From an uncultured bacterium (GTDB taxonomy: Bacteria; Bacteroidota; Bacteroidia; Bacteroidales; CAIXTV01), in contig CAIXTV010000022.1 of NCBI GenBank assembly GCA_903922465.1, forward strand, positions 1 through 45,463: 45,463 nt of DNA, given 5' to 3'. The notes under the pieces were generated by a model. The model saw nothing but the letters and a program-made list of their open reading frames with translations, made no database searches and was not told the origin of the DNA. Positions 2,202-30,906 of this stretch are shown piece by piece; positions within the stretch are counted from its first letter, which is position 1; every line of letters starts with the position of its first letter. Position numbers and translations under genes: made by a program.

Positions 2202-2364
2202 TTACGTTAAGATTTAGACTTGTATGAAAAAGAATAATTCAAATATGAATTCATTACTTATCTACATAGATAAGGGATATGAAGCTTTGTTTTCTTTATT
2301 TAAGTGCATTAAAAAGGCTGATAGATTTCCGTATTTGCCACTTCAAATATTGCACATGTCACAT

Positions 2365-2637
2365 CTACATAAAAAGAAATCCTTTCTACATTTGTGGAAT
2401 TCGTATCTACATAAAAAGAAATTCCATTTCCATAAAAAGAAATTCCATTTCCATTTAAAGAATTCAAATCAACTTTTAAGGAAATTTTTTCTACATAAAA
2501 AGATTTCAAGCCTACATTGGAAGAAACAGCATATACATTGGAAGAATTCAAATCTACATTTGAATAATCTATTTCTACTGTCTCTGATTTCATCTCTATA
2601 TTGGAAAATATTACTTCAGAATTTAATGAACTCAAAG
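2365..2637 (+). repeat. Array 1: thirteen degenerate 21-bp tandem units
   Basis: Units start at 2365, 2386, 2407, 2428, 2449, 2470, 2491, 2512, 2533, 2554, 2575, 2596 and 2617, so the 21-bp pitch is never broken. The unit is approximately CTACATWWRAAGAAWTTC plus three variable bases. Units 1-9 are the best conserved; the last four, nearest the gene at 2738, are eroded, and two more weak units may reach 2679. Several units hold a small palindrome, GAATTC or GAAATTC. Because 21 is a multiple of three, both strands stay open as heptapeptide-repeat ORFs (2224-2691 plus, 2309-2680 minus); I take these as by-products. The array lies between a promoter-like box (2194-2201) and the ATG of the next gene. 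The flanking 1982-2193 stretch holds nothing else I can identify. Confidence 0.9.
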
Positions 2638-2737
2638 AATAAGCTGATTTCTGTACATCAAACTCGTTCGATTTCATCATTCTATTGTTGAAAATTTAAT
2701 TGATATTAGGATTTATTAATACTGAAAAATAAATATC

Positions 2738-20191: not shown

Positions 20192-20337
20192 CATCTCAAG
20201 CTTCGGATGCTCCATCTCAAGCTCCGGATGCTCCATCTCAAGCTCCAGATGCTCCATCTCAAGCTTCGGATGCTCCATCTCAAGCTTCGAGAGCCCATCT
20301 CAAACCTTACGAAGTCCATCTCAAGCTATAATATTTC
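20192..20337 (+). repeat. Array 2: seven 21-bp tandem units
   Basis: Units start at 20192, 20213, 20234, 20255, 20276, 20296 and 20317; all are 21 bp except the fifth, which is 20 bp. The first four are almost identical, approximately CATCTCAAGCTTCGGATGCT plus C; the last three are eroded. Read in another register the unit is CTCCATCTCAAGnnn..., sharing the pattern CTnCATnnnAAG with array 1. All three forward frames stay open over the four best units. There are no spacers between units, so it is not CRISPR. Confidence 0.92.
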
Positions 20338-28485: not shown

Positions 28486-28639
28486 AGTTGCTCAGTACAA
28501 AAGGAAATTAAATAATTATATAATTATACAATGATAGAATTATATAATTTGGGGAATTGGCGAATTAGCGATTTGAAAAGCTGTAACATAAAGAAATCAG
28601 GCTGTTAGGCTGAAGACTATTAGGTTTTAGGAAAAGAAA

Positions 28640-28684: not shown

Positions 28685-29305
28685 TTATGGAATAAACTTC
28701 ATAATGGCAGGCATGAAATCTTCATTGGTTTCGTTTTTGCCTGTTTTTACACCAACAGCCTTAAACCAACAGCAGGAACCCCTTTCGAAACCGTCCTTTA
28801 CATATAAATTCAAATTTGTAGAAACTAAATATCTGTAATCATCATCAGTGGGGACAGTTTTCAATTTAGCAACTAACCAAACCACTGCTACTTCGTTATC
28901 TTCTTTAGCATAAAAAAGAATAACTTCACCAGAATTATCACCAACCTTAACATAATAGTTTTCACCTGTAGAGGAAGATTTTCCCAAGGTAGCATGAAAA
29001 CCTGTAGAATTTATTTTAGTAGCATCCCCTTGAGATACAAGGGTAACATAATCGGCATCTTGTGTAAGTAAGCCGCATAGATTATCATGAGCCGTATTTA
29101 ACGTATCATGTTCAGTTTTGCCTTTTTCAACCTCCCAGGCTGTGTAGGCATTGGATAAGCTTAAATCTGCAGCAATTAATGCTGCAATATCAGCAGGCAA
29201 ATTTGGGACAAGTGAATTCCCATTTGATTTTACAATTATAATCTTTGTAAAATTCATTAATTCCAGGTAGCCAAAACCCAGAAAATCAATTGACGCTCGA
29301 ATCAT
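28685..29305 (-). CDS. Hypothetical protein: helical N-terminus plus fibronectin type III-like C-terminus
   Basis: The protein is 206 residues from the ATG at 29305, or 190 from an ATG at 29257 (MNFTKIII); I cannot decide between them. No signal peptide is evident. The first half (about 30-112) is rich in Ala, Asp and Leu and looks alpha-helical (LPADIAALIAADLSLSNAYT). The second half (about 116-206) resembles a fibronectin type III fold: NSGEVILFYAKEDNEVAVVW, then a closing WFKAVGVKTGK strand pair with FMPAIMKFIP. The fold calls come from pattern only. Upstream, in its transcription direction, lies the 20/21-bp array at 29431-29690. It has its own terminator. The architecture parallels that of the protein at 2738. 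Function unknown. Confidence 0.8.
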   Translation of the reverse strand: MIRASIDFLGFGYLELMNFTKIIIVKSNGNSLVPNLPADIAALIAADLSLSNAYTAWEVEKGKTEHDTLNTAHDNLCGLLTQDADYVTLVSQGDATKINSTGFHATLGKSSSTGENYYVKVGDNSGEVILFYAKEDNEVAVVWLVAKLKTVPTDDDYRYLVSTNLNLYVKDGFERGSCCWFKAVGVKTGKNETNEDFMPAIMKFIP

Positions 29306-29430
29306 AATTATTGTTTTTGTTGAATATTAAATTTATTATTTGAAATATATTGAATTTTATATTGACCATTTGTTGAATTTTAAAATCATATAAGTAGTCG
29401 ACCTGCCCTTCCCAAAATATATTTTGAGCT

Positions 29431-29690
29431 CACCTAAACACTTTAGCAAAGCTCCTAAATGGTTTAGTAAGGCTCCTAAATGGTTTAGATGCGTTCAGAA
29501 ACCAATTCTGAAGAATAGAAACCAATTCTGAAGAACAGAAACCAATTCTGAAGAACAGAAACCAATTCTGAAGAATAGAATCCAATTCTGAGGAACAGAA
29601 ACCAATTCTGAAGAATAAAATCCAATTTTAAAGAATAGAAACCAATTCTGAAGAACAGAAACTAATTCTGAAGAACAGAAATAATTTTTG
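29431..29690. repeat. Array 3: three 21-bp units followed by about ten 20-bp units
   Basis: Nearest the gene are three 21-bp units starting at 29431, 29452 and 29473, each holding the palindrome CTAAAnnnTTTAG. From about 29494 the sequence switches to 20-bp units, approximately ACCAATTCTGAAGAACAGAA, with full copies starting at 29501, 29521, 29541, 29561, 29581, 29601, 29621, 29641 and 29661. Each well-preserved unit holds CAGAA-ACCAA-TTCTG, an inverted repeat with a five-base centre. No spacers are present. The array lies upstream of the minus-strand gene at 28685. The AT-rich 29306-29430 between array and gene shows no promoter box. Confidence 0.93.
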
Positions 29691-29843
29691 CATTATAAAA
29701 ACTATAATGGATAATAGAAACTTATGTTTTTAAATATTCAACCTTTCAAAGAACATTTATGCTTAATGGGCTTACTTTAAGGCGAATAAAAAAGGGGTGT
29801 TATTATCCAATTTTATAGCCGGCAAAACGAAATTAAGCCGCAA

Positions 29844-29851
29844 CAAAGTTA
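29844..29851 (-). promoter_or_regulatory. Possible promoter reading through array 3 toward 28685
   Basis: The minus strand reads TAACTTTG, matching TAnnTTTG. It is the only such box I see between array and next gene on this strand; a transcript would carry the whole array in its leader. The rest of 29691-29956 is featureless AT-rich DNA. Confidence 0.3.
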
Positions 29852-29923
29852 TACAAATTTCTTCAAATAAAAAGCATTCTGAACAAAAAAAAATAAATAT
29901 TTCTCTTGCATTATTATTTTGCC

Positions 29924-29931
29924 TAATTTTG
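29924..29931 (+). promoter_or_regulatory. Putative -7 box for the frameshifted T9SS cargo gene
   Basis: TAATTTTG matches TAnnTTTG, 26 bases before the ATG at 29957. Confidence 0.45.
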
Positions 29932-29956
29932 AATTGGTTTTAGCTTATTATTCTTA

Positions 29957-30906
29957 ATGAAAAAATCATTCATAATATTATTGTTTTTTGTGTTGGGGAG
30001 GGGGTATGGACAAAATCTTGTGCCTAACTATAGTTTTGAAAACTATATTGATTGTCCATTTACAACATCTGAAATATATAAAGCTATACCATGGTTTGCA
30101 GGCATGAAAGATATTAATGGAAATTTAGATTGTTCGAGCGATTATTTTAATCTATGTAATAATTCAATTAATGGGTATGTTGGCGTTCCTATCTTTGGCC
30201 CTATAGGATTTCAATATCCAAGAACAGGAAATGCGTTTGCAGGTTTTCATTTCTGGAGTCCAACTTGGGGTAGAGAATATATTGAAGTAAAACTAATTCA
30301 ATCTCTTGATTCTGGAGCAAAATATTGTGTAGAATTTTGGATAAATAATTCAGGGTTTGCACATTGGGCAACTGATGCATTTGGTTTAATATTTACTAAG
30401 GATAGTATACTTACCTTAGGAGGAACACCAATTATATTACCTCCTGACATTGAAAATCCTTCAAGTAATATTATAACTGATACACTAAATTGGACAAAGG
30501 TAAGTGGCACTTATTTGGCAATGGGAGGAGAACAGTTTATAACTATTGAGAATTTTTTAAATGATAGCGTTATAAATAAAATTATTTTTCTACTCTGTCA
30601 AATGATTATGATTATTATTTAGTGGATGATGTTTCGGTGGTAAGGTGCGATACCTTTATATCGAAGCCTGTTGTTGTAATAAATGTTTATCCTAACCCTG
30701 TGATAGATGAACTTACCATTGAAGCAAAAGGAAATACCATTCCAATTTGGTTCGAGATATATAATACAATTGGGCAGCTTATCTGCAAGGGGAGTATGGT
30801 AGGAAAGATAATTATTCCAACAAACAGACTTGCAGGTGGGATGTATGTTATTAGGTTTGAGAATGGGGAGAGGTTGGAATATAGGAAGGTTGTTAAAGGA
30901 AATTGA
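29957..30906 (+). pseudogene. T9SS cargo protein gene split by a frameshift
   Basis: The first frame (29957-30622, 221 residues) begins with a signal peptide (KSFIILLFFVLGRGYGQ) and NLVPNYSFENYIDCP, the start of a carbohydrate-binding-like domain common in Bacteroidota surface proteins. It loses sense after NDSVINKIIF. Sense resumes one frame over with SNDYDYYLVDDVSVVRCD and continues through a T9SS type A sorting domain (VYPNPVIDELTIEAKGN ... GGMYVIRFENGE) to 30906. The break falls at the five-T run 30585-30589; one extra T would restore a continuous protein of about 317 residues. It is therefore a recent pseudogene, a slippage-switched gene or a sequencing error. Before the break the protein looks normal. 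Confidence 0.85.

Follow-up and report, generated by a model that had tools for sequence, protein, structure and literature searches.

Direct repeats of about 20-22 bp, lying beside a gene and spaced two helical turns apart, make up plasmid iterons and partition centromeres of the ParR/parC type. The locus described here sits in a 45,463-nucleotide stretch of DNA (the window) from an uncultured member of the Bacteroidales. Its third tandem array (array 3), next to the gene for an FN3-like protein (P0001), resembles these elements in its repeat length, close to two helical turns, and in its position next to a gene. The searches speak against an origin with iterons or a partition centromere: P0001 gave no match to a Rep, ParR or similar DNA-binder (its net charge is -8) and no plasmid relative of the family was found. 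No relative of P0001 was detected in phages or in the plasmid collection, and three single-protein scans of viral contigs, of a kind that finds close relatives only, returned no member of the family.

The BrickBuilt minisatellite/MITE of Porphyromonas gingivalis is built from 23-nt spacer-less intergenic repeats and is present in 19 copies in strain ATCC 33277 (PMC4596501). The arrays studied here are likewise intergenic spacer-less tandem repeats at many loci of a Bacteroidota genome, but BrickBuilt as portrayed there has one unit, a leader and a tail, and small inverted-repeat ends, whereas here the units differ by locus and a gene family is attached (PMC4596501). The same unit and flanking leader or tail did not recur at many loci and no common termini were found, and a BrickBuilt-type MITE was rejected. 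TAACTGA heptamer arrays occur in Beggiatoaceae, Cyanobacteria and some Bacteroidetes, often before start codons, and are described as possibly regulatory (PMC4679880). They too are intergenic direct repeats in which contigs of some relatives end, but theirs is a fixed 7-nt word, whereas here 20/21-bp words vary at a fixed pitch (PMC4679880). In Planctomycetota, tandem repeats are described behind non-coding deletions (PMC9426551).

Type III toxin-antitoxin systems of the ToxIN kind also carry tandem repeats directly upstream of a protein gene; their named representatives have 3 to 5.6 repeats, with a conserved pseudoknot-forming region and an endoribonuclease toxin, and neither the few repeats nor such a region or toxin was seen in our module (PMC8860590). 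The array is upstream of the gene in the window, in a paralogue and in 16 of 20 informative loci from other genomes, and downstream in four of eight members from the source genome (hereafter the own genome). The evidence speaks against type III membership: Pfam and PDB sequence searches gave only FN3-like similarity and no ToxN/CptN/TenpN-like endoribonuclease, NCBIfam gave nothing informative for the family, and the window had 0 terminator-like sites in 29300-29960. In literature searches partly aimed at other topics, no paper describing such a gene-array module was found by title or start of the abstract.

Array 3 and the neighbouring FN3-like gene

The switch from 21-bp to 20-bp units reported in the initial annotation was confirmed in kind and in position, three units of the first type being followed by ten of the second (Table 1). 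The array begins one unit earlier than had been read, with a degenerate unit that holds a perfect palindrome at 29413-29426 and is in phase, so that the dyad centres at the start fall at 29419.5, 29440, 29461, 29482 and 29503. The further claim that each unit is a small inverted repeat held in part. Perfect 5-bp inverted repeats are present in all three units of the 21-bp type and in six of the ten 20-bp units, and the remaining four are mismatched. Among the ten, five carry an exact CAGAA-N5-TTCTG, three TAGAA-N5-TTCTG with one mismatch and one CAGAA-N5-TTTTG; in the last, TAAAA-N5-TTTTA, both sides are altered with complementarity kept.

Table 1. Features of the array 3 locus and the other arrays, in positions of the window.
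Feature	Position	Strand	Remarks
Array 1, degenerate 21-bp units	2364-2568		Inside doubtful ORF 2309-2680 (-)
Array 2, intergenic, 21-bp, genome-wide class	20192-20327		
P0001 gene, 206 aa, FN3-like family	28685-29305	-	ORF; array 3 lies upstream of its start, gene points away
Gap from gene start to array	29306-29412		Gene-proximal ~85 bp conserved with paralogue (blastn L168/L169, alignment from -85 through gene)
Degenerate first unit, palindrome CAAAATATATTTTG	29413-29433		21-bp phase
Three 21-bp-type units, each with CTAAAnnnTTTAG	29434-29495		Starts 29434, 29455, 29476; 21, 21 and 20 bp
Ten 20-bp units, consensus CAGAAACCAATTCTGAAGAA	29496-29695		Starts 29496, 29516 ... 29676; TRF 29496-29681, 9.3 copies, 88% matches
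Inverted repeat CATTATA-aaaac-TATAATG, far edge of array 3	29691-29709		Offset from the phase by about 3 bp; possibly fortuitous
Far flank of array 3	29730-29765		29/36 identical to far flank of paralogous array, E=0.002 (pairwise comparison)

With units head to tail, outside genes and without spacers, array 3 has the layout of a bacterial intergenic minisatellite (VNTR); a CRISPR array was rejected, as the units are not separated by unique spacers. ARAGORN found no tRNA in the window and no Rfam match there reached its gathering threshold. The DNA of the array 3 region was compared with 59 other genomes of the order, all 59 from outside the family of the source organism, and 12 of them matched, over no more than 22-94 bases at a time. 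The gene across array 3 from P0001, at 29957-30906 (+), looks like one for a secreted protein with a type IX sorting tail and is split into two frames near 30600-30625. A type IX sorting domain, together with relatives labelled Chitinophagaceae, indicates a member of Bacteroidota. A short 8-bp array (AATTATAT, 5.5 copies) lies at 28506-28549, 136 bp downstream of the FN3-like gene.

Members of the P0001 family are about 205 aa long and their C-terminal half is FN3-like by sequence, so that a C-terminal sandwich of FN3 type is predicted for the family. Searched against PDB sequences, the family profile matched the FN3 of gp130 (6e-6) and a titin chain with many FN3 domains (4.8e-15), a whole-chain value that this multiplicity inflates. 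Pfam fn3 was recognised in six of 20 members at E<=0.1 (best 1.4e-6). P0001 alone had no Pfam match at E<=0.01, only weak PKD and TolB_N matches at 0.04-0.06 and no fn3; weak matches of the family in PHROGs were chiefly to tail proteins. A structure model of P0001 from its single sequence (pLDDT 31) was discarded. The charge of -8, beside a median of +2 for 23 members, argues against P0001 binding the array.

Arrays of 20-23 bp and their linkage to the gene family

Array 3 belongs to an abundant class. We counted 71 non-redundant arrays of 20-23 bp (at least 2.8 copies, score at least 70) in 1.23 Mb of unmasked own-genome sequence, a sample of about a quarter of the genome, which amounts to about 58 per Mb; 62 had a pitch of 21 bp, four of 20, three of 22 and two of 23. 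The same criteria gave five arrays in about 467 kb from seven other genomes of the order. As 63 of the 71 had no adjoining recognised family gene, such arrays are not exclusive to the module. Their letters are mostly private: among 82 first-sample units, 24 of 3321 pairs were alike at 15 or more positions, against 9 pairs in total over three rounds of shuffled controls, so some units are common to several loci. Arrays lay within 50 bp of 10 of 135 contig ends (a denominator that includes small masked contigs) and of 1.2% of random positions, an excess of about six times that is consistent with the assembly breaking inside them.

A coding role for the class was rejected. Of 444 internal units, 33 were off consensus length by one base, two by two and three by three; variability with period 3 was absent from 41 arrays of 21 bp (0.341 vs 0.340 +- 0.027), and just six of the first 53 arrays overlapped a predicted gene, five of these low-scoring ORFs. 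The ORF that holds array 1 reads, by eye, as heptapeptide repeats with V and S regularly placed. No 7-bp or 10/11-bp substructure was found inside units.

Some sequence was found to recur around the arrays. Of 111 flanks, 31 matched another part of the sample, in a few cases over a long stretch, and two of the seven flank-flank matches were the two paralogous genes. One 20-bp array stands in opposite orientation at L019:13840-14029 and L086:5825-6014 (91% over 190 bp), a sign that arrays or units are able to move. Recurring flanks were also seen at L014:584-883 and L161:16690-16979, for example 290 bases at 98% identity, and an element of ~42 bp near L012:588-887 recurs 11 times in the sample. 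The word TTCTTTGA was rejected as an intergenic feature, being just slightly commoner between genes than inside them in the own genome (31 sites vs 106; 0.073 vs 0.052 per kb and strand).

Within this background the FN3-like genes stand out. In a 1.27-Mb sample of the own genome, the family profile recovered eight ORFs at E<=1.3e-7, and each of the eight had a 20/21/42-bp array no more than 350 bp away, on the upstream side in four and on the downstream side in four, compared with 77 of 898 predicted genes (8.6%) with an array equally near. Three of the eight had been noticed through their arrays; the array-blind remainder was linked in five cases out of five, with a chance probability of 4.6e-6. 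A ninth, weak member (L153; E=0.035, or 0.003 after one iteration) had no array. The whole own genome contains 16 members at E<1e-4, eight of these in the sample. A pitch of 20 bp goes with the family (three of four 20-bp arrays vs five of 67 others, P=0.004), and the fourth 20-bp array, at L019, is the inverted copy of the one at L086. Three loci of named relatives, reached through RlmN at about 50% identity, carried no array of 19-23 bp.

The arrangement around array 3 is repeated at a paralogue. The gene at L086:4987-5607, 67% identical to P0001, has upstream a 21-bp array of 3.9 copies and then a 20-bp array of 11.9 copies, in the order of array 3, their nearest edges being 118 and 218 bp away from it. 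Similarity between the two loci extends over the near flanks and 36 bp of far flank, and both arrays begin at CTCACCTAAA, but their units are spelled differently.

When 393 genomes of the order were searched by protein, relatives turned up in 12, own included, with 21 loci in the 11 others; in another draw the family was present in 10 of 149 genomes of the order, again counting the own, in up to 15 copies. The family HMM and alignment A3 leave out L191, which has a stop inside, and A3 also leaves out L184, L186 and L187. In the region -700..-50 (12.2 kb), 16 of the 20 informative foreign homologues had an array of period 20, 21, 40 or 42, with its nearest edge 91-331 bp from the gene; L182, with merely 93 bp of upstream sequence, was counted as uninformative. 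Ten of the 11 other genomes had at least one array-bearing member. In contrast, none of the 21 downstream windows (+50..+700, 13.2 kb) had such an array, and none was found in 42.9 kb outside upstream windows and family genes, a background drawn from the same short loci that is largely coding, with about 9.6 kb beyond open frames of at least 90 codons. The foreign loci are not all independent, as L177 and L184 are near copies; L176 has a weak array of 2.8 copies, and two further loci, L172 and L190, are at contig ends. TRF found no upstream array at L181, L186, L187 and L188, although at L188 three or four decayed 21-bp rows resembling those of its relative L183 can be made out by eye. L180 has a downstream 63/126-bp repeat, outside the counted periods.

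Close pairs reveal how the rows change. Between L177 and L184 (89%), the aligned span differs in length by 42 bp, which is two units. At L174 and L185, from one genome and with proteins 85% identical, the alignment of the DNA runs outward from the gene and ends at the last few old-type units, beyond which L174 carries a different unit; by eye, the old-type rows are in 21-bp phase with the new ones. The gap between array and gene at both loci contains, by eye, a G+C-rich hairpin CCCCG...CGGGG. No conserved promoter motif was found that would place the array relative to transcription: TAnnTTTG occurred upstream of the array in three of 18 loci and in the gap in two of 18, with 1.2 and 1.9 in shuffles. 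TTCTTTG, perhaps a promoter element, lies 66-121 bp upstream of the arrays at L168, L169, L171 and L173 (four of 18 gene-linked loci, 0.16 expected in shuffles).

Dyad symmetry of the units

The initial annotation had proposed comparing palindromes with shuffled units, and array 3 by itself did not clearly exceed chance. The dyad of its 20-bp consensus gave P=0.11 against dinucleotide shuffles in two runs, and 0.003 and 0.022 against mononucleotide shuffles. In folding, which had also been suggested as a check, array 3 did no better than column-permuted versions, with z of -0.95 and -0.21 in one run and of -0.07 (sense) and -0.97 (antisense) in another.

The own-genome class gave no clear pass either. 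Dyads in its 71 units had P=0.19 (dinucleotide) and 0.013 (mononucleotide), and the 18 held-out units P=0.88 and 0.53, respectively. Palindromes as a trait of all arrays were thus rejected, for the weak enrichment of the first 53 (dinucleotide P=0.04) was absent from the 18 held out. When 51 first-sample units were compared with real GC-matched 21-mers, P was 0.07 (intergenic) and 0.05 (coding). Folding of 51 own-genome arrays, two of the 53 having been dropped for too few whole copies, gave mean z of -0.27 and -0.23 (se 0.14) relative to column-permuted versions. The palindromes GAATTC, GAAATTC and AAGCTT pointed out in arrays 1 and 2 are present and fall within the background of the array class.

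Compensatory stem changes were likewise rejected as evidence. A first count (P=0.007) had double-counted pairs and included a coding array; after correction, with this array (L024) left out, nine of 16 double changes in stems of at least 4 remained complementary vs 94 of 280 control pairs (P=0.10), and minimum stems of 3 and 5 gave P=0.09 and 0.28. By raw rate, single changes were somewhat rarer at own-genome stem positions (0.137) than in control pairs (0.184).

Arrays beside the gene family in other genomes behaved differently. Their selection was by protein similarity and not by palindromes, and in 16 such arrays the best stems summed to 72, compared with 61.7 +- 2.9 in dinucleotide shuffles (P=0.0025) and 54.7 +- 3.0 in mononucleotide shuffles; this test kept both L177 and L184, and the folding test dropped L184 as a near copy of L177. 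The 15 foreign arrays folded more stably than column-permuted versions, with a mean z of -1.74 in gene sense and -1.44 in antisense (se 0.26). No excess was found in the seven own family-linked arrays (stems sum 28 vs about 26.4 in dinucleotide shuffles), and among the three that were folded L170 was the sole exception (z -3.69 and -3.04). The symmetry is therefore a feature of arrays beside the gene family in other genomes, and not demonstrably one of array 3. The suggestion that such units may be sites for a dimeric binder or a chain of RNA hairpins is partly supported, through the dyad excess of the foreign gene-linked arrays, an excess not seen in array 3 or the own linked arrays. Among deviating pairs in stems of at least 5, wobble was equally common in sense RNA (63 cells) and in antisense (60), which favours neither RNA over DNA nor the reverse.

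A putative gene-array module and its alternatives

Our tentative reading, held with somewhat less than even confidence, is that array 3 and the FN3-like gene together form a recurring gene-array module, with the array as its upstream half; the row would consist of putative cis-acting DNA sites whose pitch is kept while the letters turn over. The module comprises a chromosomal FN3-like gene of ~205 aa and a row of some 3 to 22 non-coding units at 20-/21-bp pitch (sometimes as 40-/42-bp higher-order repeats), which in other genomes stands about 90-330 bp before the start codon. This reading starts from the observed linkage, the foreign position, the pitch, the lack of a coding signal, the letter turnover between paralogues, the two-unit copy difference in one pair and the foreign dyad excess. 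The units would be DNA sites that act in cis and are stacked at intervals of two helical turns, each presenting the same face. A dimeric or wrapping protein probably binds the units and controls the neighbouring gene; copy number would tune the element, unequal exchange or slippage would swap and homogenise letters, and selection would keep the pitch and often the symmetry. The adjacent FN3-like protein, which on its sequence is not obviously nucleic-acid-binding, is merely one candidate for the binder. Against the module stand the half of the own members (four of eight) whose array is downstream, and the thought that palindromic units might simply expand more easily.

The strongest competitor, which we regard as somewhat unlikely, holds that the arrays are neutral minisatellites. 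Slippage or unequal exchange would build arrays of about two turns in weakly constrained intergenic DNA, the family genes would merely live there, and hairpin-forming units would expand more easily. The density of arrays, mostly beside other genes, agrees with this, as do the enrichment at contig ends, expected of unstable repeats, the free variation of array sequences and the lack of a dyad excess in own family-linked arrays. It fits poorly with the linkage of all eight family genes against the 8.6% background, with the upstream-only placement in other genomes (16 loci vs 0/21 downstream windows), and with a 21-then-20 layout repeated in paralogues despite different letters. We slightly lowered the weight of the module and raised that of neutral origin, since a dyad excess is absent from the own linked arrays and the foreign control sequence is to a large extent coding.

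A structured leader RNA, in which a hairpin chain in a long 5' leader controls transcription or translation, or freed repeat RNA binds the protein as in type III toxin-antitoxin systems, appears unlikely. The upstream position in 16 of 20 informative foreign loci would suit it, and so would the stable folding of foreign arrays, slightly stronger in gene sense; yet G-U pairs are not preferred in the sense strand, the stretch from array to gene in the window holds no terminator-like site, FN3 takes the place of ToxN-like similarity, and the array is downstream in four of eight own members.

An element of the BrickBuilt kind, mobile and with a minisatellite inside, is very improbable: the inverted recurrence of the 20-bp array at L086 and L019, the 24 alike unit pairs and the 31 matched flanks speak for it, but most units are peculiar to their locus and few flanks recur from one array to another (seven flank-flank matches among 111 flanks, two of them from paralogous genes). 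Equally improbable, and already largely refuted, is a coding role of the units, as heptapeptide repeats in small or decayed proteins, because although 21 = 3 x 7 and one window array lies inside an ORF (2309-2680, -), 20-bp arrays exist, 1-bp shifts in unit length far outnumber 3-bp ones (33 vs 3 of 444) and period-3 variability is absent.

Returning to the gene-array module, a wider proposal, which we consider doubtful, is that it is a novel two-part module of Bacteroidota: a multicopy FN3-like protein with a private array, in which a ruler (20 or 21 bp, a fixed upstream place and often dyads) would be inherited and the letters rewritten between paralogues, as in self-recognising or regulatory diversifying pairs. 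Sequence searches do not pick up arrays whose letters differ, and ordinary annotation would therefore overlook a ruler common to them. Should the pairing be confirmed, it would open a way into a protein family that has no name yet and provide a clear example of DNA spacing, perhaps also of symmetry, that may be under selection with the letters free to vary. It also makes testable the question of whether bacterial minisatellites are passive products of slippage or maintained cis elements.
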